A stretch of 64,000 nucleotides of DNA from Liopterus haemorrhoidalis (Eukaryota > Arthropoda > Insecta > Coleoptera > Dytiscidae). Shown piece by piece: positions 6,905 to 28,906 of the stretch. The notes beneath the pieces were generated by a model. The model did not search any database and had not been told where the DNA came from. It saw only the letters and a list, made by a program, of their open reading frames with translations. How positions within the stretch are numbered: position 1 is the first letter of the stretch; each line of letters begins with the position of its first letter. Position numbers and translations under genes: made by a program. The stretch is taken from assembly GCA_963971575.1 (NCBI GenBank), contig OZ020622.1:29046301-29110300 (forward strand), given 5' to 3'.

Positions 6905-7102
6905 TAATGATATTATGAGTAATATAATCCAAGGCAAACTCTTCAAACAAAGACATAGTGATAATTAAAAACTGGAATTTCCTTTAATATTGTATTATGA
7001 TGATTTTGAAGTGGGAAATCCACTAGGGTCACATACGGGAATCCATAAATTAGGGGCAGTTTATTTGTCTATACCAGTTTTGCCTAAATTACATTCATCT
7101 TC
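6905..7102 (+). pseudogene. 5' half of a repeat-family protein interrupted by Polinton B
   Basis: A plus-strand frame ending in LILYYDDFEVGNPLGSH... then KLGAVYLSIPVLP and HSS runs into the target duplication at 7097-7102. The signature DDFE.GNPLGSH is familiar to me from a multicopy transposon-like protein of insects and other animals whose mechanism I cannot name. Reading continues in the same phase (SSLENIYK) on the far side of the Polinton at 28901, which independently confirms the insertion junction. Confidence 0.7.
7097..7102. repeat. Target site duplication of Polinton B, left copy (ATCTTC)
   Basis: ATCTTC directly precedes the left terminal repeat and recurs directly after the right one at 28901-28906. 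Six base pairs is the usual Polinton duplication length. Confidence 0.95.
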
Positions 7103-7503
7103 AGTAGTATAACAGTGGGCATACGGGCTCATTACCCACGAAACCCTGAAATTTGCACAAATTCACATTTCGCAAACGTACGCGACCATCGCTGTGCGTC
7201 CCCCCTCCCCCCGCCTCCCCTCGGCCTCGCTCGTCCGATCACCGCGAGACTCGAGGTCAAAAAACAGGGTCCTTATCGGTCGCGGCGTCCGGCGCGTGCA
7301 GCGAACGAGTTCAAACTTGTTCGGGGTCAAAACCGGGTCATCGCAATCTTTGCTGACGCAATATGTTTTTCTGTTCGAGGTCAAAACCGGGTCATGACAA
7401 TTTTTGCTGACACAATATGTTTTTCGATCGGTGTAATCACGTTTACGAACGGGTATTGATAAGGTTTATTTACGTCCGCAAAAATTTGATTTTTGTACGC
7501 AGA
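7103..7503 (+). repeat. Left terminal inverted repeat of Polinton B (401 bp)
   Basis: Matches the right end in inverse orientation to base 7503. The left copy has 24 extra bases (about 7426-7449), which accounts exactly for its greater length. It contains two 54-bp tandem units built on GGTCAAAACCGGGTCAT (starts ~7325 and ~7379). The distal 150 bp are GC-rich. No gene is supported inside it; the open frames in the repeat appear in all phases because the segment is GC-rich. Confidence 0.95.
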
Positions 7504-8337: not shown

Positions 8338-8814
8338 ATGAAATTCATTGTTGATCTTCAAGGATTTTATACAAATACATTTATTTTAAAAGAAATAACT
8401 ATTCTGTCCTCGGGTGAAGGCAGTGAAAAAACTAAAATCAGTCATTTTATACTGAAACCTCCTTTTAAATGGCGTTCATTAGACAGCGAGTACAAAAAAC
8501 GAGCGGGCTGGCTTTATTCTCACCATCACGGTTTGAGGTGGTCCGATGGATTCGTGGATTATGAAGAATTTATTAAAAATCATTTACCAAATTTATTAAA
8601 ATCAGCAACGGTGATTTATGTGAAGGGTGATCAAAAGATGAAATTTTTATCATCTCTGAATCTTAAAGCGATCATTGTGGATGTACCCGAACAACCATCA
8701 CTGAAAGAGTGTGTGAGTAAAACACGATGTTTCCATCATAATACCGATGGTAAAATATGTTCCACCGATAATGCATACAAAATTGCGAATATTTTAAAAT
8801 ATAATAATAAATGA
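8338..8814 (+). CDS. Conserved Polinton-type protein with DLQGF and HHHGLRWSDG motifs
   Basis: 158 residues, ATG at 8338 directly after a C-rich leader. N-terminal strand FIVDLQGFYTN with a conserved Asp, then HHHGLRWSDGF (near 59-70), IYVKGDQKMKFL (near 96-107) and a C-terminal Cys/His cluster (C...C.HH...C). This layout resembles a hypothetical family I associate with arthropod Polinton and retroelement neighbourhoods. An RNase H-like or DEDD-exonuclease-like fold is possible from the N-terminal D and the spacing, but unproven. Codon use and AT content match the other Polinton B genes. It sits in the left-end group of plus-strand small genes. Confidence 0.6.
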   Translation: MKFIVDLQGFYTNTFILKEITILSSGEGSEKTKISHFILKPPFKWRSLDSEYKKRAGWLYSHHHGLRWSDGFVDYEEFIKNHLPNLLKSATVIYVKGDQKMKFLSSLNLKAIIVDVPEQPSLKECVSKTRCFHHNTDGKICSTDNAYKIANILKYNNK

Positions 8815-8960: not shown

Positions 8961-9122
8961 ATGAACGCTCGCGTGAATTTGCTGAATAAAATAAACACAC
9001 ATATTTGCAACATAAAAAAACTTAAAGAAGACATAAATCAGTATGAAAACATATGTAAAATAACAACAGCTATGAAGAAGTTAGATATTCATAAGGATGG
9101 AAGAAAGAAAAGTTCAATTTAA
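8961..9122 (+). CDS. Small helical protein overlapping the PPP1R15-like gene
   Basis: 53-residue frame starting at ATG 8961, rich in Lys, Asn and Ile with heptad-like spacing, so probably one long helix. A TATATA at ~8897-8902 lies about 60 bp upstream. Its last 26 bp (9097-9122) overlap the start of the next gene in a different phase. It could be a true short gene, an upstream frame that controls translation of the next one, or the N-terminal part of that protein separated by a frameshift. The sequence does not settle this. Confidence 0.4.
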   Translation: MNARVNLLNKINTHICNIKKLKEDINQYENICKITTAMKKLDIHKDGRKKSSI

Positions 9123-9294
9123 TGAAGTCGTTCGGGTGCATCATCTCATAGTGTGGGGGTATGCGACCCGATCGGTGAGACGAGGGTGTTGGGAGCAGCA
9201 TGCAGATCGAGAACGGTTCCAGCGTAGAATAATTGAATTTAACGAAAAATTTAAATATGTTTTAGAAAAAAAAGAAATGTATCCGACTGAATAA
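9097..9294 (+). CDS. PPP1R15/GADD34-like PP1-docking small protein (virus-type)
   Basis: 65 residues. KVQF at residues 5-8 fits the RVxF docking motif for protein phosphatase 1. It is followed by V-R-V-H-H-L-x-V-W (12-20), A-T-R-S-V-R-R-G (23-30), W32 and D-R-E-R-F...R-R-I (37-45). That order of features is the signature of the PPP1R15 C-terminal module (GADD34, CReP), which recruits PP1 to dephosphorylate eIF2alpha. Herpes simplex ICP34.5 and African swine fever virus DP71L are viral forms. I infer that the element could keep host translation running under stress. The family is small enough that chance resemblance must be considered, but five separate anchors match. Likely cytoplasmic. Confidence 0.7.
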   Translation: MEERKVQFNEVVRVHHLIVWGYATRSVRRGCWEQHADRERFQRRIIEFNEKFKYVLEKKEMYPTE

Positions 9295-10222: not shown

Positions 10223-10438
10223 TTGACACAGCGTCGTCGATCCCTGCTAGCAGCTGCCCGGAAACTGAGAACAACCTGCAATGTTATGTATGTGTGGACC
10301 AGGAATGGAAGAATCTACGTGCGTGAAAATGAACGTTCCCCGGCAGTGAATGTAAATAGTGAGAAAGATATAAGTGTAATTGAAAAGAGGTGTAAAGAAA
10401 AAGCAATGAGTGTGTTAAAATCAAGTGTCACTGAATAA
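10223..10438 (+). pseudogene. LINE ORF1 C-terminal remnant
   Basis: The last ~75 residues of ORF1, with QRRRSLLAAARKL and YVWTRNGRIYVRE, the usual C-terminal end of jockey-like ORF1 nucleic-acid-binding proteins. The N-terminal part was lost by 5' truncation. The stop at 10436-10438 is 4 bp before the ORF2 ATG. Confidence 0.7.
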
Positions 10439-10442
10439 ACAA

Positions 10443-13247
10443 ATGTCTTTGTATTACCAGAATGTACGCGGACTTCGAACCAAAACGCATCTGCTCTATC
10501 CTAACGTTCTTGCTTCTGATTATGATGTAATTTCGTTTACTGAAACATGGCTACATGAAAGTATATATAACAGAGAATTGTTTGATGTTAGATATGCCTG
10601 TCATCGTTCAGACCGGCAGGACGGTAGGAGGGGCGGAGGTGTTCTGGTAGCAGTCCATTCACGTTGGAAATCTATAAACCTAACGAAACATGTAACCTCT
10701 CTCGAGTATGTACTGATCAAACTGTATGACGATAGAACGACAATGTTTATATCATGTGTTTATTTACCACCAAAATCAACAGCTGATCAGTACAGACTTT
10801 ATTTTGACATCTTAAACTCTTGCTTAGATATCACTGCAAATAACGTTATAATAATTGGAGATTTCAATGTTGATATTTTCAACGATATTAATCAGTGTGA
10901 TAGCGCGGCAGCAGAAGTTGCCAATAATATCAGTTTTTATGGTTTGCGAAGTTCAAATAACATATGTAATGCATATAATAAAACTTTAGATCTAGTTTTG
11001 ACAAATATTGCTAGTGTGAGTGTAGAAAAAAACTATGATCCTCTGTTACTTGAAGACAAATATCACCCAGCACTTACTATTTGCAATAAATACACTTGCT
11101 TTGTGGTGAAACAAGAGTCAGAAATTAACAAAGGATATAATTTTAAAAAAGCTGATTTCTTGAAGTTGTATAATGAACTCAGTCAAGTTAACTGGAGTTT
11201 TCTCAGATATTACGATGATGTCAACCATGCCTTGGACGAATTTTATAATGTTTTATATAATGTCCTTAACAATTGTGTACCGATAGTCCGGTCGCGGGTT
11301 GGCACTTATCCCTCTTGGTTCACGGCTGAGATTAAATCACTGATTAAACAGAAAAAATATTTCCATAAAAAAATTAAAAATAAATCTGGAGATGTAGACT
11401 ACCATAAGCACAAGTTCTCTGAATGTAGGAGAACTTTAAAAGCTCTGTTAAAGAAGGAATATCGGAGCTATATTGAAGAAATTGAACAAAACATTCCTAA
11501 TGATTCAAAAAAATTTTGGGAATTTGCTAAAAGTAAAAGAAAATCCGATCTTCTTTCTTGCTTAATTACTGAAGACAATGTCGTTGTGGATGATAGTCTA
11601 CAGATTGCGGATACTTTTGCATCTTATTTTGCTTCTGTTTTCAATGATGATATTGATGACGTGAACAATGCTAGAAAAGAGACATGCAACATCGAGTCTC
11701 TCAATATTAAATCTGTGACTCTGGAGGATGTAGAGTGGTCCATAAGGAAATTAAAGCCCAAAAAATCTTGCGGTCCGGATAATCTACCGCCTTACGTAAT
11801 AAAAGGATGTAAAGATATTCTGACGTATCCACTTCACATTCTGTTTCAAAAATCAATTGATACACATACATTCCCTACTAGGTGGAAGATGTCTAGGGTA
11901 TGTCCTATACATAAGAGCGGAGATAAAAAAGACGTTAAGAATTATAGACCGGTATCCATTATCTCGCCTCCGGCCAAAGTTTTTGAACAAATTATTTATA
12001 AATATTTATTCCAACACGTCTCTCCAGTTATTAGTAAAAAACAACACGGATTTATGCCACGTAGGTCAACAGTTACTAATTTGATATCCTTAACAGAATA
12101 CGTTAGTCACTGTCTGGATTCTGGAACTCAAGTAGATGCAGTATACCTCGATATGACGAAGGTTTTTGATAAAATAGGGCATTCCCACTTACTTGGTGCA
12201 TTAAAACATGTTGGTGTTTCACCTCTAATGTGCACTTGGTTTGAAACCTATTTACGTAACAGATCACAATACGTTCAATTCAACGGTTCAAAGTCGAGGA
12301 ATTATTTATCAACCAGTGGTGTGCCACAGGGGTCGAATCTCGGGCCCCTGATGTTCCTTCTGGTGGTCAATAATATCCCAGATATTGTGAGCAACAGCCA
12401 GTGCGAGATGTTTGCTGATGACGTCAAAATATATCGCCAAATAACTGACTTGTCTCACTGTCTTGCACTTCAAAGTGATTTACAAAAACTCTGTGAATGG
12501 AGTAAATCCACTGGTCTAACATTTAACACCACAAAGTGTAAGGTTATGACTTACTCTAGAAAGAGGGAAGTGATCACATACAATTACAATATGGAAGGCT
12601 GTATTGTTCCTCGAACAGAGACAATCAGAGATTTGGGAATATTGTTCGATTCGAAACTGAATTTTCACCATCACGTTGAACATATTGTCAATAATGCATT
12701 GAGAAAGGTTGGGTATGTACTTCGTGTAACTAAAGATTTTCGTCATAATCGGACGTACATTGCATTATTCAATGCTCATGTTAGACCTCTACTTGAGTAT
12801 GGTAATATTATATGGGCACCGTATCAAACTAAATATATTAAACGCATTGAAACTGTACAAACGCGGTATTACCGTGTTGTGAAACTACGGATGACAGGAG
12901 TATATCCAAAGTATACGTCCGGTGAAGTAATTTTGGCAGAGTTTAATGTTAAAACGTTGGCTGCGAGAAGAGATTTGGCATCACTGCTACTTCTATACAA
13001 AATATTTAATAATCTTGTGGACGACTCTAACATTTTATCTAATATTTACGTAAGAGTACCTTCCCGTGATTTTAGGACAAGAGACACATTATTCTTATGT
13101 AAAAGGGCAAATACGGAGCATTGCAATATGAGTCCTCTGCATAAAATGACCGCACTGTATAACGATCTTTTGTCAAAAGACCGATCTATTGATATATTCA
13201 ATGTAAGTTATGCAGGTTTTCGCAAAGCTGTAATAAGCGTGATGTAA
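10443..13247 (+). CDS. LINE ORF2: endonuclease and reverse transcriptase, intact
   Basis: 934 residues from ATG 10443. The endonuclease begins YYQNVRGLRTK, with TETWL and IIGDFNVDIF carrying catalytic residues. The reverse transcriptase follows, with CPIHKSGDKKDVKNYRPVSI, the palm Asp in YLDMTKVFDKI, SGVPQGSNLGP, and FADDVKIYR for the catalytic Asp pair (FADD). The C-terminal thumb contains HVRPLLEYGNIIW. No RNase H domain, consistent with the jockey clade. It makes target-primed cDNA copies of its RNA. No stop or shift is visible, so it may be active or recently so. TKVFDK in place of the common SKAFDK is a small oddity. Confidence 0.93.
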   Translation: MSLYYQNVRGLRTKTHLLYPNVLASDYDVISFTETWLHESIYNRELFDVRYACHRSDRQDGRRGGGVLVAVHSRWKSINLTKHVTSLEYVLIKLYDDRTTMFISCVYLPPKSTADQYRLYFDILNSCLDITANNVIIIGDFNVDIFNDINQCDSAAAEVANNISFYGLRSSNNICNAYNKTLDLVLTNIASVSVEKNYDPLLLEDKYHPALTICNKYTCFVVKQESEINKGYNFKKADFLKLYNELSQVNWSFLRYYDDVNHALDEFYNVLYNVLNNCVPIVRSRVGTYPSWFTAEIKSLIKQKKYFHKKIKNKSGDVDYHKHKFSECRRTLKALLKKEYRSYIEEIEQNIPNDSKKFWEFAKSKRKSDLLSCLITEDNVVVDDSLQIADTFASYFASVFNDDIDDVNNARKETCNIESLNIKSVTLEDVEWSIRKLKPKKSCGPDNLPPYVIKGCKDILTYPLHILFQKSIDTHTFPTRWKMSRVCPIHKSGDKKDVKNYRPVSIISPPAKVFEQIIYKYLFQHVSPVISKKQHGFMPRRSTVTNLISLTEYVSHCLDSGTQVDAVYLDMTKVFDKIGHSHLLGALKHVGVSPLMCTWFETYLRNRSQYVQFNGSKSRNYLSTSGVPQGSNLGPLMFLLVVNNIPDIVSNSQCEMFADDVKIYRQITDLSHCLALQSDLQKLCEWSKSTGLTFNTTKCKVMTYSRKREVITYNYNMEGCIVPRTETIRDLGILFDSKLNFHHHVEHIVNNALRKVGYVLRVTKDFRHNRTYIALFNAHVRPLLEYGNIIWAPYQTKYIKRIETVQTRYYRVVKLRMTGVYPKYTSGEVILAEFNVKTLAARRDLASLLLLYKIFNNLVDDSNILSNIYVRVPSRDFRTRDTLFLCKRANTEHCNMSPLHKMTALYNDLLSKDRSIDIFNVSYAGFRKAVISVM

Positions 13248-15632: not shown

Positions 15633-16556
15633 TTAATTTTGAATTACATCTGATTTATCAACCCAAGAATTGAAAGATTTATCGAAACCCAACCATTTAA
15701 CGTACACCTTAGACCCCTTAGTGCGCAATATCTTTTCAACTAGATAAATATCGGGGTATGCGGTCTTTTGTAACTCGTACTCGTAAAACCCGCCTGAAAT
15801 AGGGTTATTTTGAAAATCTTGTAGTTTATAAGTAACCGGATTTGTGTGTTGAATTTTATCAATTTTAAATATTTCAGTGGACCAGTTGGGTTCATAACCT
15901 TTTTCAAATAAGTGCTTTATTTTACTTATTCGTACATAATCTCCAACTTTAAGTTTAGCTTTACCGCTAATTTTAATATTACTGTACACCGTTTGTAATA
16001 AAAGTTTCTCATTTTTATGCGTAACTTCGACCGGTTTCATACCGATAGTTCTGTGTCGTTTATTATTGTATTGTTCGACCAATTTCGATAAAATCTTCAA
16101 CCAAATATGTGAACCTTGGTGGCTAAATCTTCGCCACATAGAATTCTTAAGTGTTCTGTTGAACCTTTCACAAACGGAGGCCTTAAGATTACTGAACGAA
16201 GAATAATGATTGACGTTATACCGTTTCATTAATTCTTTAAATTTTGAATTATAAAATTCTTTACCGTTATCTGTTTGTAAATTTTTCGGGACACGACCTT
16301 GCTCGAAAACTTTTGAAAGAGCAAGCGATATATTTTCGGCAGATTTTGATTTTACCGGTACCACCCAAGCATATTTGGAAAAAACATCTATAATTGTTAA
16401 TAAATATTTGTAACCCTTATTATATCGAGCGTGAGGAATCATTTCAACGAGATCACTCTGCCATAAGTCATCAATACCTTTAGTTATCACACGTCTTCGC
16501 GGGTAATTTCTACGAGCCGATCTGTGTAACTCGTTTACGATTTTTAATTTACTCAT
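15633..16556 (-). CDS. int: Polinton integrase (retroviral type) with C-terminal chromodomain
   Basis: 307 residues, ATG at 16556. The catalytic core has D35 (LWQSDLVEM), D96 (LQTDNGKEF) and E130 (SVCERFNRTLK), the DDE triad of the rve family. A beta-barrel-like segment (KVGDYVRISK) follows. The C-terminal ~50 residues (YLVEKILRTKGSKVYVKWLG...SWVDKSDV) are a chromodomain that could steer insertion to marked chromatin. The N-terminal zinc region common in retroviral integrases is short or absent, as in many Polintons. It cuts and joins the inverted-repeat ends to make the 6-bp duplication. A palindromic CTTATATAAG at 16606-16615 is a likely TATA box. The gene looks intact. Confidence 0.95.
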   Translation of the reverse strand: MSKLKIVNELHRSARRNYPRRRVITKGIDDLWQSDLVEMIPHARYNKGYKYLLTIIDVFSKYAWVVPVKSKSAENISLALSKVFEQGRVPKNLQTDNGKEFYNSKFKELMKRYNVNHYSSFSNLKASVCERFNRTLKNSMWRRFSHQGSHIWLKILSKLVEQYNNKRHRTIGMKPVEVTHKNEKLLLQTVYSNIKISGKAKLKVGDYVRISKIKHLFEKGYEPNWSTEIFKIDKIQHTNPVTYKLQDFQNNPISGGFYEYELQKTAYPDIYLVEKILRTKGSKVYVKWLGFDKSFNSWVDKSDVIQN

Positions 16557-17918: not shown

Positions 17919-18620
17919 TTATGTTAGAATATTATGAAAACCTTTTCGATACCGCCCTTTTAGTATATCGCTGTCCTTATCGATCACGACGAATCCATAT
18001 TTATCCCGCCAACAATCAGAACAAAATTCTTTAAATTTTATGAACGTCATATCGGTATTCACGTGATCTTTATATATATGATGTAAATTCATATCGTCCT
18101 GCTTGAAAATGACAATCAAATTCACATTGTCCCGTATTAAATGCTTAGGTATACGAGCGTAGGTTTGACATAAATAAAAACAATCTATAAAATAATGACG
18201 CCCCTGACTAAAAAATTCCTGAATACACATCTGTTTGTCACAAGCTATATCGTCAAACAGAAACACCGAGTTTGACCTTGAATCTTGAGGTTTCACGATA
18301 TCAGCGTTATCAGTAAACGTAAAGTAACCCATGCCTTTTACACGAGAAACGCACTCTTCTAGAAATTTATATTTCGGTTGATTAAGTGACTTAGAATAAA
18401 TATAAATATTTTCGAATCGAAATCCGTTTTTATCTGATAATAAACTCAACATCACATTAGTTTTACCGCAATTTGACGGACCACAAATTATGCATCTGAT
18501 GGTATTTGGTAATAAATCTCCATGTCTTCTACAGACGTTACCACCACCACCACCACAGCTGTTATCCATCATATCAAAATTTTTTACATGCAGACTGCTT
18601 TTGTGCTTCGTGAAGTGCAT
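17919..18620 (-). CDS. DNA-packaging ATPase (FtsK/HerA, A32-like)
   Basis: 233 residues, ATG at 18620. Walker A is GPSNCGKT at residues 47-54. Walker B is SVFLFDD at 118-124. A sensor-like CQTYAR and IFKQDDMN follow. The length and the P-loop with an internal Cys fit the poxvirus A32-like ATPases that pump genomes into capsids in Polintons and relatives. A Gly-rich and His-rich N-terminal extension is encoded by a (CCA/CCG)n stretch. It starts back to back with the PLA2 gene, so early structural genes share one promoter region. No lesion is visible. Confidence 0.93.
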   Translation of the reverse strand: MHFTKHKSSLHVKNFDMMDNSCGGGGGNVCRRHGDLLPNTIRCIICGPSNCGKTNVMLSLLSDKNGFRFENIYIYSKSLNQPKYKFLEECVSRVKGMGYFTFTDNADIVKPQDSRSNSVFLFDDIACDKQMCIQEFFSQGRHYFIDCFYLCQTYARIPKHLIRDNVNLIVIFKQDDMNLHHIYKDHVNTDMTFIKFKEFCSDCWRDKYGFVVIDKDSDILKGRYRKGFHNILT

Positions 18621-18689
18621 CTTAACAAATAATGAAGGGTATATATGTGTGGATTTCCTATTTATATATCATTCACTTTTCATCACCTG
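18621..18689. promoter_or_regulatory. Divergent promoter between ATPase and PLA2 genes
   Basis: Sixty-nine bases hold two TATA-like blocks, GTATATATG at 18639-18647 and TTTATATATC at 18661-18670. The first reads the same way for a minus-strand start. It could serve the ATPase, and either could serve the PLA2 gene. CATTCACT at ~18670 resembles an insect initiator. Confidence 0.5.
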
Positions 18690-19289
18690 ATGATTACGCA
18701 TCATAGCGGCTCCGGTTTACTTAATTCCGCGATAAATTCTCTACCGTTTGAATTGCATTTACCCGGATATCAATATTGCGGACCCGGTACTAAACTTCAG
18801 AAAAGATTATTACGAGGTGATCCCGGGATAAACCCTTTAGACTCCGCGTGTAAGGATCACGACATAGCTTATTCTCAGAATAAGGAATTAAAAGAAAGAC
18901 ACGAAGCGGATAAAGTGTTGCAGCAGAAGGCTTGGCTAAGAGTTATATCAAAAGACGCTTCCATAGGTGAAAAAGCAGCGGCGTTGGCGGTGGTGGGTGC
19001 TATGAAAGCGAAAACAAAACTCGGTATGGGGCATAAGAAAAGAAAACCGAAAACGAAGAAAACGAAAAAACGATCGAGAACTTTAAAAACAGGTGGCGTT
19101 CTACCATTTCTACCGGCGCTGTTACCGCTGATAGGGAAAGCGTTATTGGCAGGTGTGGCCAGCGGAGCCGCGTCCTACGGAACGAAAAAGGCGTTGGGTG
19201 GCGGTCTGTATCTGGGTCCGTATCCTCATAAACGCGGTGGTAAATTACAGCGGAAAAATAAAAAAAAAAAAAAAATAATAAAACATTAA
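18690..19289 (+). CDS. Virion protein: phospholipase A2 domain plus basic core-like tail
   Basis: 199 residues from ATG 18690; an in-frame ATG at 18645 overlaps the divergent promoter and is less likely. The calcium-loop motif YCGPG is at 29-33 and the catalytic pair H57-D58 sits in DSACKDHDIAY. This is the parvovirus VP1-unique PLA2 fold, which pierces endosomal membranes. Residues ~115-145 are very basic (KKRKPKTKKTKKRSR). They are followed by a Gly/Ala/Leu-rich stretch (LPFLPALLPLIGKALLAG) like adenovirus core and pVI-type segments, so it may bind DNA and membranes. The C-terminus ends in a Lys run encoded by a 16-A homopolymer (19260-19275). First gene of the plus-strand virion cluster. 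Confidence 0.85.
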   Translation: MITHHSGSGLLNSAINSLPFELHLPGYQYCGPGTKLQKRLLRGDPGINPLDSACKDHDIAYSQNKELKERHEADKVLQQKAWLRVISKDASIGEKAAALAVVGAMKAKTKLGMGHKKRKPKTKKTKKRSRTLKTGGVLPFLPALLPLIGKALLAGVASGAASYGTKKALGGGLYLGPYPHKRGGKLQRKNKKKKKIIKH

Positions 19290-20422: not shown

Positions 20423-20586
20423 TGGGTATTGATTTTAATACTCCCCTAACAAAAAAAAAACCTATACCTATAAATAACACGTCTGACAAATATAAATTCA
20501 ATCTCCCTCCAACAAGACCTGCGTTAACACCTGAAAATATTCAGTTTCTTTTATCTCAAGGTTACAAATTAAAGAAACAACAATGA
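20422..20586 (+). CDS. 54-residue protein between penton-like and hexon-like genes
   Basis: ATG at 20422 overlaps the previous stop, and its own TGA (20584-20586) overlaps the next ATG (20583). Such tight linkage on both sides supports a real gene. Sequence is rich in Pro, Lys, Asn, with FNLPPTRPALTPENIQFLLSQGYKL, a short amphipathic end. Likely a small structural or assembly peptide. Not recognised. How three overlapping cistrons are translated in a eukaryote is not evident. Confidence 0.6.
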   Translation: MGIDFNTPLTKKKPIPINNTSDKYKFNLPPTRPALTPENIQFLLSQGYKLKKQQ

Positions 20587-21791
20587 GTGAAATACTAAAC
20601 GTGAGCGGTAAAGTAAGCTTTAACAATGCCGTCAGACGTGAAGAGTGGCATACGTATGATCCATATTCATCTACGAGATATGAAAACAGTGACGAGATAA
20701 GAATACCGATTCACCATCAAGATATCTGCACAACACCGTACGATAGTTTCATTGTTATAGAGGGTAGATTTACTAAACCTGATGAAACCGCTTTAACAGC
20801 ACCGGTCGATGTGAAATTAGCGACAAATGGGTTCGCGTTTCTGTTTGATGAAATTCGTTATGAATTATTCGGTATTGAAATCGATAAGGTTAAAAATGTA
20901 GGTATTACAAGTACAATGAAAGGTTATATTTCGATTAAATCGAGGTATTAAAACGAGGTATCTAACTATGAAACCGCCGGTTGGAATAATGCAAAACTCG
21001 TGCACGCCACTGGAGATTTCACCGTATCAATACCGCTAAAATTACTGCTCGGTTTTGCCGAAGACTACAATCGAATCATTTTAAATGCTAAACAAGAACT
21101 CATACTCGTCCGTTCTAGAAACGATAAAAATGTGTATATAAATGATGCAGAATTTAAAATAAATATATTTAAGATACAATGGCGAATTAAACATATTTAT
21201 CCTAGCGATGAGGAAAAATTAAATTTGTTGAATATTATTAACAATGGCGGGGTGTTACAGGCGCCATATAGAGGTTGGGACCTTTACGAGTACCCCGTAT
21301 TACCAACCGCTTCAAAACAAATTTGGGCCATAAAATCATCGAGCCGGTTAGAGACACCCAGATATGTAATACTCGGATTTCAGAGCGATGTTAAAAATAA
21401 AACCAATACGGATTCTGGTAAATTTAACCATTGCAATCTGACAAATGTTAAACTCCACCTTAATTCAGAATGCTTTCCGTACGATAATCTAAATATAAAT
21501 TTTGGAAAAAATCAGTATGCCGTATTGTATGAAATGTACACACAGTTTCAAAAGTCCTACTATAATCAACAGACCAGCCCCCTGTTAAATTGGGCTAATT
21601 TCAAGGATGTTTGTTTAATAGTAATCGATTGTTCTAAACAGAACGAAAAAATCAAATCCGGTCCTGTTGATATCCGATTAGAATTTGAAGCCACCGAAAA
21701 TTTCCCCGCTCAAACAACGGCTTACTGTCTAATATTACATGATAAAATTACCGATTATTCACCCTTAACCGGTATCGTAAATTTGTTATAA
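20583..21791 (+). pseudogene. Major capsid protein (hexon-like double jelly roll), one in-frame stop
   Basis: The frame from ATG 20583 runs to 21791 in a single phase, interrupted only by TAA at 20949-20951, for 402 sense codons. The flanking repeat of CGAGGTAT on both sides of the stop hints at a small duplication or slip. N-terminal EEWHTYDPYSS, DEIRIPIHHQD and the middle LHLNSECFPYDNLNINF are typical of the Polinton major capsid protein. It would form the capsid facets. The stop makes this copy probably non-functional unless read through. The rest shows no decay, so the stop is recent or a sequencing error. Confidence 0.82.
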
Positions 21792-21830: not shown

Positions 21831-23363
21831 ATGTTGGGGTTACTGCTGTATATTTTTCTTCTCCCGTGTTATAACCTTATACAAGCGTCAGAATTTGAAG
21901 AAATTCTAACCCACCTACACACATACGGCTATTTTAACTTTAGCGACGAGTTAAATTTCGAAGCGATCGATGAAACAAATGGTAAATACAGAAATGCGTT
22001 AAAATATTTTCAAAAACAACACAACTTGTCCATTGATGATGCGTCCAATTTAGAAACATTGAATTTAATGAGAAAGCGGAGATGTGGTAATTCCGATACC
22101 TTAAACTATGTTATCGGTCATAATAAATGGATGAATAAAATCGTATTTTGGGAAATATATCGAACCTCTAATACTCGAGCTATCAACCTGGTGCAGAGAG
22201 CATTCGATATTTGGTCGAAGCATGCCGATATTACATTTATGAGAAAAAATGTTCGACCTGATATATTAATCAGTTTCGGAAAGAAACGTCATTTCACTTC
22301 TAAAACATACGCATATTGTGTCAATTCTTTTGACGGTCCCGGCGGTACATTGGCACACGCCAACCTACCCAACGCAAATCAAACCCCTGTAGAAATACAT
22401 ATTGATTCGGATGAAAATTGGGACTATAATTTGAACACATCATTGGATAATTTTACAAATTTCTTTGAAATGATGGTACATGAAATTGGGCACTCACTCG
22501 GAATCCATCATTCAAATAACTTTTTCTCCATTATGTACCCCTATTATTTTTCAAAAATGTTTAACAACCTCACGGCTGTGGATTTAGAAGAGGATGACAA
22601 ACATGCTATTCAATCCTTATACGGTCCTCCTCTAGAAACAACAACGACAACAACAACAACAACAACAACAGCCAAAGAACAACCCCCAGGAGCAGCAGCA
22701 GCAGCAGCAGGAGCAACCCCACCCAACATTTGTGATTTAAATAATGAATTAAATACATTCTTAATAATAAATGAACATCTGTACATATTTCATGCGGATT
22801 GGGTGTGGCAGAAAAATCTAGCTGATAATAATTTAAATCATAAACCAACACGAATTACCGACTGGCTACCATTTTTATTAAATTTTGATAAAATATCAGC
22901 TGTCTATCAGAGACCTAACGGTAATATTATACTCGTTACCGGTAATATAATATACAACGTTAAATTCCCATCTTTTCAACTTGAACACCGTGTAGTAAAC
23001 TTTAATTCGATGAAAAACATTACGAGTGCGTTTAATTCATATACGGGGCGCACGTACTTTTTCTATAATGATGTATATTGCTCGGAAATCGATGAATGTA
23101 ATATGTATGTTAAGGATAACGCATACGTTTATAAAATGTTTCCCGAAATACCACCGGGTGTTAATGGAGGCTTCCGATATACGGATGGCTTAATATATTT
23201 TTTCAAAAACAAAATCTATTACGCGTACAGTGAATTTACTAACAAACTTGTAAAGGCGGAACCTTTTGACTTGTCTATATTTGATATACAGTGTCCTAAT
23301 GTGGGAATATTTAAACAACTTAAAAATTTATTAACCAAACTTACATCTTATTATAACTTGTAA
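21831..23363 (+). CDS. Matrix metalloproteinase (secreted, hemopexin-type)
   Basis: 510 residues, intact. Signal peptide at 1-20 (LLLYIFLLPC). The propeptide holds the cysteine switch RRCGNSD with C85. The catalytic zinc site HEIGHSLGIHH is at 217-227 (H217, E218, H221, H227), with Met-turn M235 in SIMYPYY. A linker of 11 Thr, then Ala, Gly and Pro follows. The C-terminal region from ~300 resembles a divergent hemopexin beta-propeller (VYQRPNGNIILVTGN, YRTDGLIYFFKNKIYYAY-like blades). It cleaves extracellular matrix proteins. The closest known parallels are host MMPs and the MMP genes of granuloviruses, where they aid spread. Placed between capsid and polymerase genes and ends with an AATAAAG signal. 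Confidence 0.93.
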   Translation: MLGLLLYIFLLPCYNLIQASEFEEILTHLHTYGYFNFSDELNFEAIDETNGKYRNALKYFQKQHNLSIDDASNLETLNLMRKRRCGNSDTLNYVIGHNKWMNKIVFWEIYRTSNTRAINLVQRAFDIWSKHADITFMRKNVRPDILISFGKKRHFTSKTYAYCVNSFDGPGGTLAHANLPNANQTPVEIHIDSDENWDYNLNTSLDNFTNFFEMMVHEIGHSLGIHHSNNFFSIMYPYYFSKMFNNLTAVDLEEDDKHAIQSLYGPPLETTTTTTTTTTTAKEQPPGAAAAAAGATPPNICDLNNELNTFLIINEHLYIFHADWVWQKNLADNNLNHKPTRITDWLPFLLNFDKISAVYQRPNGNIILVTGNIIYNVKFPSFQLEHRVVNFNSMKNITSAFNSYTGRTYFFYNDVYCSEIDECNMYVKDNAYVYKMFPEIPPGVNGGFRYTDGLIYFFKNKIYYAYSEFTNKLVKAEPFDLSIFDIQCPNVGIFKQLKNLLTKLTSYYNL

Positions 23364-23688: not shown

Positions 23689-26600
23689 ATGATGAGTTCT
23701 AACAGTACAGTTTGCAGTATTAGCGATCGGGCTATTATTAACATTCGAAAAGCTTTATCGCTCATTAGAACTGTCGATGAAGCCGAAAGATGGCGGAAAC
23801 ACATAAACAAAATTATAATAATAGTTCAGAAATGTATCGAGAACCAAATCACGGTGTTCAGGTGTAAAGATGAGAATTTAGCCAAATTGCAAGGCAATTT
23901 AACTATTTTAAAATTTTTCCGTGAGAAGCTGAAGAATATCAAAACGAGTTCGACAAAAACCGGAGCAGGACTATTGACACGGAGGAGGAAGCAAAATTTG
24001 GTTTGGGAAGACATCAAATCCGTGTTCAATAATCGAATAAAAACCGGTGCCATAATAAACAAAGGAGGGTTTAAAGATCCGAGAACATTTCTCGAAAAAT
24101 CCAAAAGGATTTTCACGAATAAAATTAAAGCCAGCCTGAAGAAATCGATTTTAAAAGTGAACGTGATATTTAGTGGGGAATTTGTGTTACCATCAACCGG
24201 TAGGATAGAAATAAAAACATTTAACACGAGCAATAAAATTATCGATAACGCCACCGATATCAACGTGTGGTATAATGAAAACGTGAGAGAAAATATATTG
24301 CGTGATCTGGAGGAGTTCCAGGAACGTGACTCCGGATGGTCGTTGCATGAGATAATGCATTTAAACGTGAACATAAACAATTATTCACCCATCACCATAC
24401 GTGGATATATTGATTTACCGGATGATGTGAAGAAGAAACAAGCCGTAATAAATATGAAGAACCGTGATGAATACTGTTTCTTGTGGGCTGTTATGTCCGC
24501 ACTGTATCCGGCAGATAAGAATTCAGATCGTGTGACGTCATACCCACATTTTAGTACATCATTAAATTATGACGGAATTCAGTTCCCGATTCGAATTAAG
24601 GACATACCGAAATTTGAAGAGATGAATAAATTATCGATAAACGTGTACACGCTTTTAAAAGTTGGTAAGAATAAACATGAAGTCGCCCCCGTTAAATTAA
24701 GTAAAAAAACTGATGTGAAAACCATACATCTTTTAATGATGTACTCTAATGTGGAAGATGAAGATGAAGAAGAAGAAGAAAAAATGGAAGAGGGGGATAT
24801 CGTCGCGAATATTAGAGCACCGCGAAATTACCACTTCATGTGGATTAAGAATTTATCAAGATTACTCTCCGCACAGATTTCCAAATCACACCATAAAGCA
24901 TATCTGTGCGATAGATGTTTGAATCACTTCATAACCGAGACTTCGCTGCAAAAACATTTATTAAATTGTCGTGTCACGAATCCGTGCACGCGAATTGAAC
25001 TACCCGACGAGACGCATAAAATTTTAAAATTTAAAAATTACAGCAATAAAGAGAAAGTACCTTTCGTTTTGTATGCGGACATCGAGGCCATTCTCGAAAA
25101 AATTGATGACAAAAGTGGGAAAAATACAATTAACACGCATAAACATATTCCGTCGAGCGTGGGATATTACATGAAGTGTTCTTATGATGGTTCGTTATCC
25201 GGTTACCGATTTAATCGCGGTAAAGATTGCATAAATTGGTTCACGGATCAACTTAGTAACATCGCCACGCAAGTTGATGAAATAATGCGCAACGCTTTGC
25301 CGATGAAACTGACACGCGAGGAACAAAAGCGGTTCATGAACGCTACAATTTGTCATATATGCCACCAAAATTTTCACGCGAACGACGTCCGGGTCAGGGA
25401 CCATGACCACCTGACCTCTAATTACCGCGGCGCAGCACATCAATCATGCAACCTAAAGTATCACGCCAGTCACACGATACCTGTAGTTTTCCATAACTTG
25501 TCCGGGTACGATGCACATCACATCATTAAAAATATAGCTAAAGGGATACCGGGATCTGTTTCATTACTACCGATAAATAAAGAACGGTACATATCCTTCA
25601 CTAAATCTGTGTTGAATACAAAAGTGAAATTCAGATTTATCGATTCGTTTCGTTTTATGGCGAGCAGTCTTGATAAATTATCATCCTATCTGAAAGATCC
25701 GGAGATGTCGATCACCAGATCCCATTGCGCATCCGCAACCGAGTTCAAATTATTAACGAGAAAAGGTGTGTTCCCGTACGAGTACATCGATTCGTGGGAA
25801 AAACTCGATGAGGTACAATTACCCCCGCAAACCGCATTCTTCAGTTCCCTCCGAAATGAAAGTATAAGTGAAGAAGACTATTCGCACGCTCGAGAAGTTT
25901 GGAATACGTTCAACGTGCGGACATTGGGTGATTACAACGACCTCTACTTGAAGACGGATGTGTTATTATTAGCGGATGTCTTTGAGGCTTTTCGGGGTAC
26001 CTGTTTACAAACGTACCGATTGGATGCTTTACATTATTACACGGCACCCGGTCTTTCTTTCGACGCGATGTTAAAGTGTACTGAAATTGAGCTCGAGTTA
26101 TTGACCGATGTTGATAAAGTTTTGTTTTTGGAAAAAGGGATCCGAGGCGGTGTGTCACAGTGTTCGAACAGATATGGGAAAGCCAATAATAAATATATGG
26201 GTGAATATTACAATCCCGACGAACCCGAATCTCACCTGATGTATTTCGATGTTAACAATTTGTACGGTGCGGCTATGGGGATGAATTTACCATTTGCGCA
26301 ATTTGAGTGGGTGGCGGAAATGGACTTTTATAAAATCGATTTATTAAATTTATCTGGTGAAGCCGATACCGGTTATATTTTCGAGGTGGATCTAGAATAC
26401 CCCGTAGAATTGCATAGAATGCATAAAGATCTACCTTTATGCCCTGAACATTTTACACCCCCCACCTCAAAGACTGCAAAATTAATTCCGAATTTATATG
26501 ATAAAAAAAAATATGTTATACACTATCAAAATTTACAACAATGTGTACAATTCGGAATGAAATTAATGAAAATACACCGCGTGCTCAAATTTCAACAAAG

Positions 26601-27463
26601 TCCCTGGTTAAAGAAATATATAGATTTAAACACATCGTTGAGAAAAGTAGCCAAAAATGAATTCGAAAATTTTTTTTTTAAGTTGATGAACAATTCCGTG
26701 TTCGGGAAGACGATGGAGAACGTTCGTAAACATTCAAATGTGAAATTAGTTACAAAATGGGGGGGGGCGTTACGGAGCCAAATCATACATATCACAACCT
26801 AATTTTCACAGCTGCACCATACTTGATGAAGACATTATACTGATTGAAATGAATAAAAATATGGTGATATTCAATAAACCTATTTATGTCGGGTTCTCAA
26901 TACTCGATCTTTCCAAAACTTTCATTTACGATTTCCATTACAACTATGTTAAAGCAACGGTCGGTGATAATGCGAAATTACTTTACACAGATACAGATAG
27001 CCTCATATATAATTTTTTAAATTTTGATGTTTACCAAATGATAAAACGTGATATAAGTAAATTCGACACATCAGATTATCCCAAGGATAACGTATTCGGC
27101 ATGCCTCAGGTTAACAAAAAAATAGGTTTGATGAAAGACGAATGCGCTGGCCAGATTATAACAGATTTTATAGGATTACGATCAAAAATGTACAGTTACA
27201 AGGTGTTGAATGCGAAAACGGGTAAACGGGCGAAGGGTGTCACGCAAGCCGCTTTAAAAACTATAAACTTTGAAGATTATTATGATTGTTTATTTCAAAA
27301 CATTACACTTATCAGAGAACAAAGCATTATAAAATCTATACGGCACGATGTATACACAATTAAACAAAAAAAACTTGCGTTTAGTCCGCATGATGACAAA
27401 AGGGTTGTAAATTATTTATACACCGACACGATACCGTGGGGTTATAAGGATAGGATTAAGTAG
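23689..27463 (+). pseudogene. polB: Protein-primed DNA polymerase B, one G-run frameshift
   Basis: First ATG 23689 or 23692. N-terminal helical region, then a conserved block with [12 protein letters not shown], a C2H2-like finger (CDRCLNHF...HLLNC), Exo I (YADIEAI), an endonuclease VII-like HNH insert (CHICHQNF...VRDHDHL...CNL), Exo II (NLSGYDAHH) and Exo III ([12 protein letters not shown]). The palm follows with [10 protein letters not shown] (motif A), [14 protein letters not shown] (motif B) and, after the frameshift, YTDTDSLIY (motif C). The first frame ends at 26802 and the second resumes before 26849. The break is a run of nine G at 26759-26767, one more than the phase needs. Otherwise complete, about 1,250 codons. 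It replicates the linear element by protein priming. Confidence 0.93.
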
Positions 27464-28523: not shown

Positions 28524-28900
28524 TCTGGGTACAAAAATCAAATTTTTGCAGACGTAAATAAACCTTATCAATACCTCGAAAAACATATTGCGTCAGCAAA
28601 AATTGTCATGACCCGGTTTTGACCTCGAACAGAAAAACATATTGCGTCAGCAAAGATTGCGATGACCCGGTTTTGACCCCGAACAAGTTTGAACTCGTTC
28701 GCTGCACGCGTCGGACGCCGCGACCGATAAGGACCCTGTTTTTTGACCTCGAGTCTCGCGGTGATCGGACGAGCGAGGCCGAGGGGTGGCGGGGGGAGGG
28801 GGGACGCACAGCGATGGTCGCGTACGTTTGCGAAATGTGAATTTGTGCAAATTTCAGGGTTTCGTGGGTAATGAGCCCGTATGCCCACTGTTATACTACT
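28524..28900 (-). repeat. Right terminal inverted repeat of Polinton B (377 bp)
   Basis: Inverse copy of 7103-7503, lacking the 24-bp segment and differing at a handful of positions. It holds the same pair of 54-bp units. The terminus reads ...GTTATACTACT outward. Confidence 0.95.
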
Positions 28901-28906
28901 ATCTTC
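28901..28906. repeat. Target site duplication of Polinton B, right copy (ATCTTC)
   Basis: Second copy of the 6-bp duplication. Removal of the element and one copy restores an open frame in the host repeat. Confidence 0.95.

Follow-up and report, generated by a model that had tools for sequence, protein, structure and literature searches.

A Polinton, a virus-like mobile element, in the genome of the dytiscid beetle Liopterus haemorrhoidalis carries a 65-aa open reading frame, here called R15, that is homologous to most of the core of PPP1R15 (GADD34), the adaptor by which cells resume protein synthesis after stress. Related frames, which we sorted by sequence into lineages A to E, recur in several Polinton lineages of the same genome, and the divergence of lineages A and B shows purifying selection on R15. 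R15 is probably an eIF2alpha-phosphatase adaptor like DP71L, ICP34.5 and a granulovirus protein, which would keep host translation running. The window is the whole stretch of DNA that was analysed, 64,000 nt at C11:29046301-29110300, for which an earlier note made from the letters had proposed a PPP1R15/GADD34-type module encoded by a Polinton.

R15 and the PPP1R15 core

The R15 frame, the core motifs that we located in it and a further frame overlapping its start lie in the window as follows.

9097..9294, + strand: R15 ORF of the Polinton, PPP1R15-like, 65 aa, with its own ATG and stop
9109..9120, + strand: RVxF motif K5-V6-Q7-F8 (human KVRF 555-558), from the alignment to the human core
9136..9141, + strand: V14-H15, aligned with the PhiPhi pair V564-H565 (numbering from PMC10743859)
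9178..9192, + strand: R28-R-G-C-W32, Arg-pocket residue and Trp582 equivalent, from the alignment
9205..9231, + strand: D37-R-E-R-F41-Q-R43-R44-I45, aligned with the eIF2alpha-/actin-contact helix
8952..9122, + strand: 56-aa ORF overlapping the R15 start in a different frame

The motifs K5-V6-Q7-F8, V14-H15, V19-W20, R28-R29-G30-C31-W32 and D37-R-E-R-F41-Q-R43-R44-I45 follow one another in the order of the PPP1R15 core, as the earlier note had read from the letters: its KVQF, V-W, RRG-x-W and DRERF..RRI elements are all present in the 65-aa frame. The resemblance that it had claimed on this basis is borne out by database searches. Among 177,635 distinct PDB sequences, a phmmer search with the window R15 returned six hits at E up to 10, the best of which was PPP1R15A (7nzm_C, E 9e-8), matched over residues 4-52 (49 residues). 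The other PPP1R15-type matches were PPP1R15A (4xpn_B, 2.3e-6), DP71L (9nb9_B, 1.4e-3) and PPP1R15B (4v0u_E, 0.42), with unrelated mitoribosomal mL84 chains (0.067 and 0.076) ranking between the last two. When a profile made of Polinton sequences only (six sequences, two from lineage A) was compared with the PDB, the top six chains were all PPP1R15A, PPP1R15B or DP71L (E 4.1e-14 to 6.3e-4; next 0.24), and with the core exon of the host PPP1R15 gene added to the profile the values were 9.3e-16 to 8.2e-6 (next 0.22). PPP1R15A was also found in the PDB by lineage B alone (1.1e-5) and by lineage C alone (5.7e-3), and lineage A shares 51-53% identity with the PPP1R15A/PPP1R15B core over ~49 residues.

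The BLOSUM62 local score of the window R15 against the human PPP1R15A stretch is 115, compared with a maximum of 56 in 20,000 shuffles; the runner-up among the 1,020 stop-to-stop frames of the window scores 32. The block RxGxW...DRxRFxR, a pattern written after the ORF had been seen, occurs a single time in the window and in 0 of 100 shuffles. The profile check that the earlier note had called for came out partly in its favour: the PDB search and the Polinton-only profile extend beyond KVQF over most of the core, but the window R15 misses the cut-off of Pfam PF10488 (13.4 bits against a gathering score of 26.1). With the same model, a lineage A copy reached 22.7 bits and E 18.6, both below 26.1, copies of B, C and D were unmatched, and two mammalian-type cores scored 34 and 29.8 bits. 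A chance resemblance might be suspected for an ORF of only 65 aa that lies below the Pfam cut-off; the shuffle test, the PDB searches and the genomic matches described below, 50 of which lie outside the host gene and most of which are free of stops, refute this reading, and we give it practically no weight.

An AlphaFold2 monomer of R15 is of low confidence (mean pLDDT 63); its predicted helix at 31-61 is compatible with the actin-binding helix, of which it is no proof, and its N-terminal helix is probably not meaningful. A protein database search with the R15 ORF alone gave no candidate, and the search with the R15 ORF and the human stretch gave six candidates with five proteins among them, namely jerboa PPP1R15A and four unnamed ones with near-mammalian cores. 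An X-padded R15 search for longer proteins returned three candidates, none at E <= 1; scans of IMG/VR with the R15 ORF, the ATPase, two further queries and two motif patterns yielded no confirmed relative; and tblastn against phage records gave 20 records, all at E 3 or more. These negatives say little on the spread of R15 in other species, since the collections may hold few animal Polintons.

Of 16 lineage A copies compared, 12 have an open 56-aa frame across the R15 start, three hold a stop in it and one is without the start string. Upstream frames are described as regulating the translation of cellular PPP1R15 (PMC10743859), and a regulatory role of the 56-aa frame for R15 is conceivable. 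We also considered a programmed -1 frameshift from this frame into R15 and rejected it, as the two frames differ by +1 and the R15 ATG stands in an AGGATGG context.

The Polinton in the window and its relatives in the genome

The R15-carrying element spans 7103-28900, and between its left terminal repeat and the R15 ORF lie 1.7 kb. Its remaining features are listed here.

7097..7102, no strand: 6-bp target-site duplication, left copy, exact
7103..7427, + strand: left terminal inverted repeat, 325 bp, 3 mismatches in 325 against the right one
10425..13247, + strand: non-LTR retrotransposon ORF with reverse transcriptase (E 5.9e-32) and endonuclease, inserted in the Polinton
15633..16556, - strand: integrase, rve core PF00665, with a chromodomain match below cut-off
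17919..18620, - strand: A32-like packaging ATPase
18645..19289, + strand: phospholipase A2-like domain protein
20583..21788, + strand: double jelly-roll capsid gene with one internal stop, second piece PF21738 at E 1.1e-99
21831..23363, + strand: matrixin/hemopexin metalloprotease, PF00413 at E 2.6e-33, plus a hemopexin repeat
23689..27463, + strand: presumed protein-primed DNA polymerase B, broken into two pieces and recognised by eye
28576..28900, - strand: right terminal inverted repeat, 325 bp
28901..28906, no strand: 6-bp target-site duplication, right copy, exact

The terminal repeats, the target-site duplication, the integrase, the ATPase and the capsid together make the assignment to a Polinton firm, and the earlier note had thus named the element correctly. 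The window copy is decaying, since its capsid frame holds one stop and its presumed polymerase frame is broken. In a Pfam scan at E 0.01 the two presumed polymerase pieces weakly matched zinc-finger and endonuclease VII models and no model of a polymerase. At 1-2798 of the window, on the - strand, two open frames resemble by eye pieces of a second broken Polinton DNA polymerase B; the longer one is matched in Pfam by endonuclease VII alone, and weakly, like the presumed polymerase frame of the window Polinton. The retrotransposon ORF sits downstream of R15, between R15 and the Polinton core genes; the offset from R15 to the ATPase is 8.8 kb in the window and 4.5-6.0 kb in 12 of the 15 lineage A siblings with a listed ATPase within 15 kb, to which this comparison refers. 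A 158-aa ORF at 8338-8814, without a Pfam match, has counterparts in lineages B, C and D at 34-37% identity and in shifted positions.

Searching the 1.02 Gb genome with the window R15 ORF gave 51 matches at E up to 10, of which 50 lie outside the host gene and 43 are without an internal stop. Lineage counts rest on 50 of these 51 matches (C13:11376727 was left out), which were sorted by sequence into 22 copies of lineage A, 5 of B, 7 of C, 13 of D and 2 of E, plus one cellular gene. An open frame in which a motif pattern of our own design is unbroken is seen in 13 of 22 copies of A, 4 of 5 of B, 6 of 7 of C, 11 of 13 of D and 1 of 2 of E, and the identity to the window R15 over the matched part is 80-100% for A, 54-58% for B and 33-43% for C, D and E. 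Intact Polinton copies of R15 are about 60-71 aa long and have continuous ORFs, with the ATG two to five residues ahead of the RVxF motif. Genome queries with the E and C proteins yielded only a few additional partial matches; the partial R15 matches at C1:204450575, C11:35134525, C13:11386665, C13:11397368, C4:25367151 and C3:68770146 were left out of the counts.

The genome is rich in Polintons, with 153 ATPase matches, of which 150 are listed at 47-100% identity. Among these listed ATPases, one lies within 15 kb of 34 of the 51 R15 matches, while 0.44% of the genome is that close to one; seen from the other side, 33 of the 150 have an R15 nearby and 117 are without a recognised R15. The ATPase is 3' of R15 in 31 of the 34 cases and 5' in the three B copies; in 32 of the 34 the two genes are on opposite strands, and in L006 and L018 on the same one. 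The 9.9 kb read for a single copy of B, of C and of D hold integrase, ATPase and phospholipase-like gene in each case, and in B a capsid gene as well. The flanking DNA of 49 of the 50 copies (all except the cellular gene) matches the reference piece of its own lineage, six of the 49 having supplied the references (L001, L024, L027, L032, L038 and L047), and the flank of L027 also matches the piece from L038.

Lineages A to D sit with Polinton genes, and lineage E is less certain as a Polinton-borne one. Its copy L038 adjoins a broken piece resembling the presumed polymerase of the window; for about 9 kb in both directions L027 is free of Polinton genes, and it shares 377 bp at 91% with the L038 stretch. 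L027, at C15:17214194-17214385 on the - strand, is an intact lineage E frame amid other repeats and may be either a relic or possibly a retained single gene. As to whether the frame is found in related elements, on which the earlier note had made its proposal depend, R15 recurs in four Polinton lineages and in this less certain fifth.

Conserved residues, the cellular gene and selection

The core exon of the cell's own PPP1R15 gene is located at C15:6477889 (L028, L054), begins at ttttcag/GTTTCG and passes PF10488 with 39.2 bits. A 322-aa open frame upstream, for which Pfam gave no meaningful match, ends ...GAQKK at AAAAAG/gtatat. If the two exons are linked as the splice signals, rather than a transcript, indicate, the gene would have a KVSF motif split K/V by an intron; in mammals the PPP1R15 core is a separate exon (PMC4394352). 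The cellular gene has retained a tail, HRAKVY, that resembles the RARA region of mammals. The host exon shares 31-42% identity with the Polinton proteins; compared with human PPP1R15A as a relative, it is lower in identity for all five lineages, and in alignment score it is higher for C and E and lower for A, B and D.

We compared seven rows, consisting of the window copy, one representative for each of the lineages A to E and the cell's own gene. V6, F8, W20, A23, R28, D37, R38, R40, F41 and L56 are invariant in all seven, whereas W32 and V14-H15 are not, and the invariant set takes in the RVxF pair, the Arg-pocket residue R28 (= R578), R40 (= R591), F41 (= F592) and D37 (= D588). R591 of the human complex touches eIF2alpha and F592 touches actin (PMC8500838), and the PP1 Arg pocket is filled by the residue aligned with R28 (PMC4394352), an assignment for which mouse and human numbering were matched in this analysis. 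Single copies depart from the RVxF motif, for example L007 with G for V, and the window copy is one residue shorter between W32 and D37 than human PPP1R15A and the sibling copies. The RxGxW block is complete in lineage A, has one extra residue before the Trp in B and keeps the Trp with Glu for Gly in E; in C and D, Tyr replaces Trp582 and Ser replaces the Gly. Lineages B, C and D have Ile at the R587 position, which the window copy lacks. At the R594 position C shares a Gln with the host gene, most copies of D have Lys and E has Leu; at that of R595 the Arg of the window copy (R44) gives way to Lys in D and E. No equivalent of the Arg612 contact or of a RARA-like C-terminal tail is present in the Polinton lineage representatives. 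According to PMC4394352, actin stimulation is abolished in vitro when the cellular core lacks its last residues, and the core fragments sufficient to repress the stress response in cells include the tail.

The missing tail, the changed RxGxW block of C and D and the variation at R587 and R594 would also suit a PP1 adaptor derived from PPP1R15 but now directed elsewhere, bringing PP1 (and perhaps actin) to another target such as Polinton or chromatin proteins, or competing with the cell's adaptor for PP1. Yet D588, R591 and F592, which make eIF2alpha or actin contacts in the human complex, are invariant in the five lineage representatives, and binding of PP1 alone would not need them; we regard such a redirection as unlikely, and an adaptor acting on eIF2alpha as the better reading.

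Constraint on the frame, the other point on which the earlier note had called for a check, is evident between lineages A and B; with it, neither of the two outcomes by which that note would have been refuted was observed. For L002 (A) against L024 (B), pS is 0.74 and pN 0.27 (Fisher p 4.8e-7), with dN 0.33 and dS 3.0, the latter near saturation. Differences at the three codon positions number 18, 17 and 30 (p 0.008), and 34 of 60 aligned residues are kept, whereas scattering the same 65 changes at random 5,000 times left 22 on average and never more than 30. Constraint between C and D was not significant (p 0.22), and synonymous sites are saturated in most other between-lineage pairs. Codon-position bias is absent among 15 lineage A copies (3, 4 and 2 variable sites in 36 codons), a pattern consistent with decay once the copies had inserted.

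Polintons can pick up host genes, and the same lack of bias among the A copies would be expected if a piece of the host PPP1R15 had been captured passively and carried without function. Such a history is very improbable: the A-B divergence rejects neutrality, the cellular core exon is split K/VxF by an intron whereas the Polinton ORFs are unsplit and begin with an ATG, and the Polinton proteins are not clearly closer to the host exon than to human PPP1R15A. Because none of the Polinton proteins stands out as close to the host exon, and because of the same difference in exon structure, a recent capture of R15 from the source genome is unlikely as well. Simple capture of the genomic exon was rejected, as no AG stands directly before the V codon in the Polinton, unlike in the host gene.

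The identities of R15 (A-B 58%, A-C 37%, A-D 39%) and of the ATPase (A-B 49%, A-C 54%, A-D 52%) suggest that the two genes may not have had one history, with either exchange between lineages or separate gains. FastTree placed host and mammals apart from A to E (0.857) and IQ-TREE joined E to the cellular proteins (support 47), trees that are too weak for claims on origin.

The putative adaptor and its known counterparts

Acting as an eIF2alpha-phosphatase adaptor, R15 would wrap host PP1 with its N-terminal half (KVQF, VH, R28 and W32), and the two faces of its C-terminal helix D37-R-E-R-F41-Q-R43-R44-I45 would hold G-actin and the eIF2alpha domain, respectively. The complex of R15, PP1 and actin would then strip the phosphate from Ser51 of eIF2alpha, and translation would continue while host stress kinases respond to the replicating element. 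We infer the binding of PP1, actin and eIF2alpha, the dephosphorylation and the benefit to the element from known PPP1R15 structures and from the viral homologues. Against the adaptor reading stand the missed PF10488 cut-off, the absent tail, the varying substrate contacts, the altered RxGxW block of C, D and E, the low-confidence AlphaFold2 model and the lack of significant constraint between C and D. A core this short can be functional, since DP71L is similarly short and is reported to promote dephosphorylation (PMC5346070).

These results bear on the open question of whether animal Polintons are mere transposons or partly infecting viruses. We are close to evenly divided, leaning slightly to the doubtful side, on whether animal Polintons carry, keep under selection and pass among lineages a dedicated integrated-stress-response antagonist. 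If they do, Polintons would go through an infection-like phase that is fought by host eIF2alpha kinases, and 'transposon' and host would be in an arms race over translation shut-off. A conserved gene with known relatives that undo translation arrest under stress is evidence for such a virus-like phase. The Polinton proteins also form a natural set of minimal divergent cores, with Trp-to-Tyr exchanges and without the tail, from which it may be learned which residues the phosphatase needs.

The cores of PPP1R15A/GADD34 and PPP1R15B/CReP (human 555-621) have in common with lineage A the order RVxF, V-H, VW, Arg pocket, RxGxW and DRxRFxxRI. In contrast to cellular PPP1R15, the Polinton R15 is short and intronless and has neither the long N-terminal region nor the Arg612/RARA tail. 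DP71L of African swine fever virus (PDB 9nb9) is likewise a short stand-alone viral PPP1R15 core, with a 71-aa chain, which was matched at E 1.4e-3 by the single R15 ORF and at 5.4e-9 by the Polinton-only profile. DP71L recruits PP1 and dephosphorylates eIF2alpha (PMC5346070), an activity tested by experiment for DP71L and predicted for R15, and the carrier of DP71L is a large cytoplasmic DNA virus, that of R15 an integrating Polinton. ICP34.5 of herpes simplex virus is described as a viral PP1 adaptor for eIF2alpha (PMC4394352, PMC8500838), the role that we propose for R15.

In insect DNA viruses, a PPP1R15 core is described for coGV-gp036, the granulovirus PPP1R15 homologue (PMC4394352), and for the homologues of other baculoviruses (PMC5704228), which we liken to R15 by their published description; the baculovirus gene is said to be most likely of lepidopteran origin. 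The caution of the earlier note, that it knew of no such module in Polintons or adintoviruses, therefore holds in part: PPP1R15 homologues in insect viruses were already known, but the open-licence literature searched, as far as its accessible text goes, made no mention of a PPP1R15/GADD34-type gene in either group. Adintoviruses and animal Polintons/Mavericks share with the present element the rve integrase, the double jelly-roll capsid, the packaging ATPase, the terminal repeats and the presumed polymerase B. If R15 acts as we propose, an integrating double jelly-roll virus lineage would join the herpes-, asfar- and baculoviruses that have PPP1R15 homologues.
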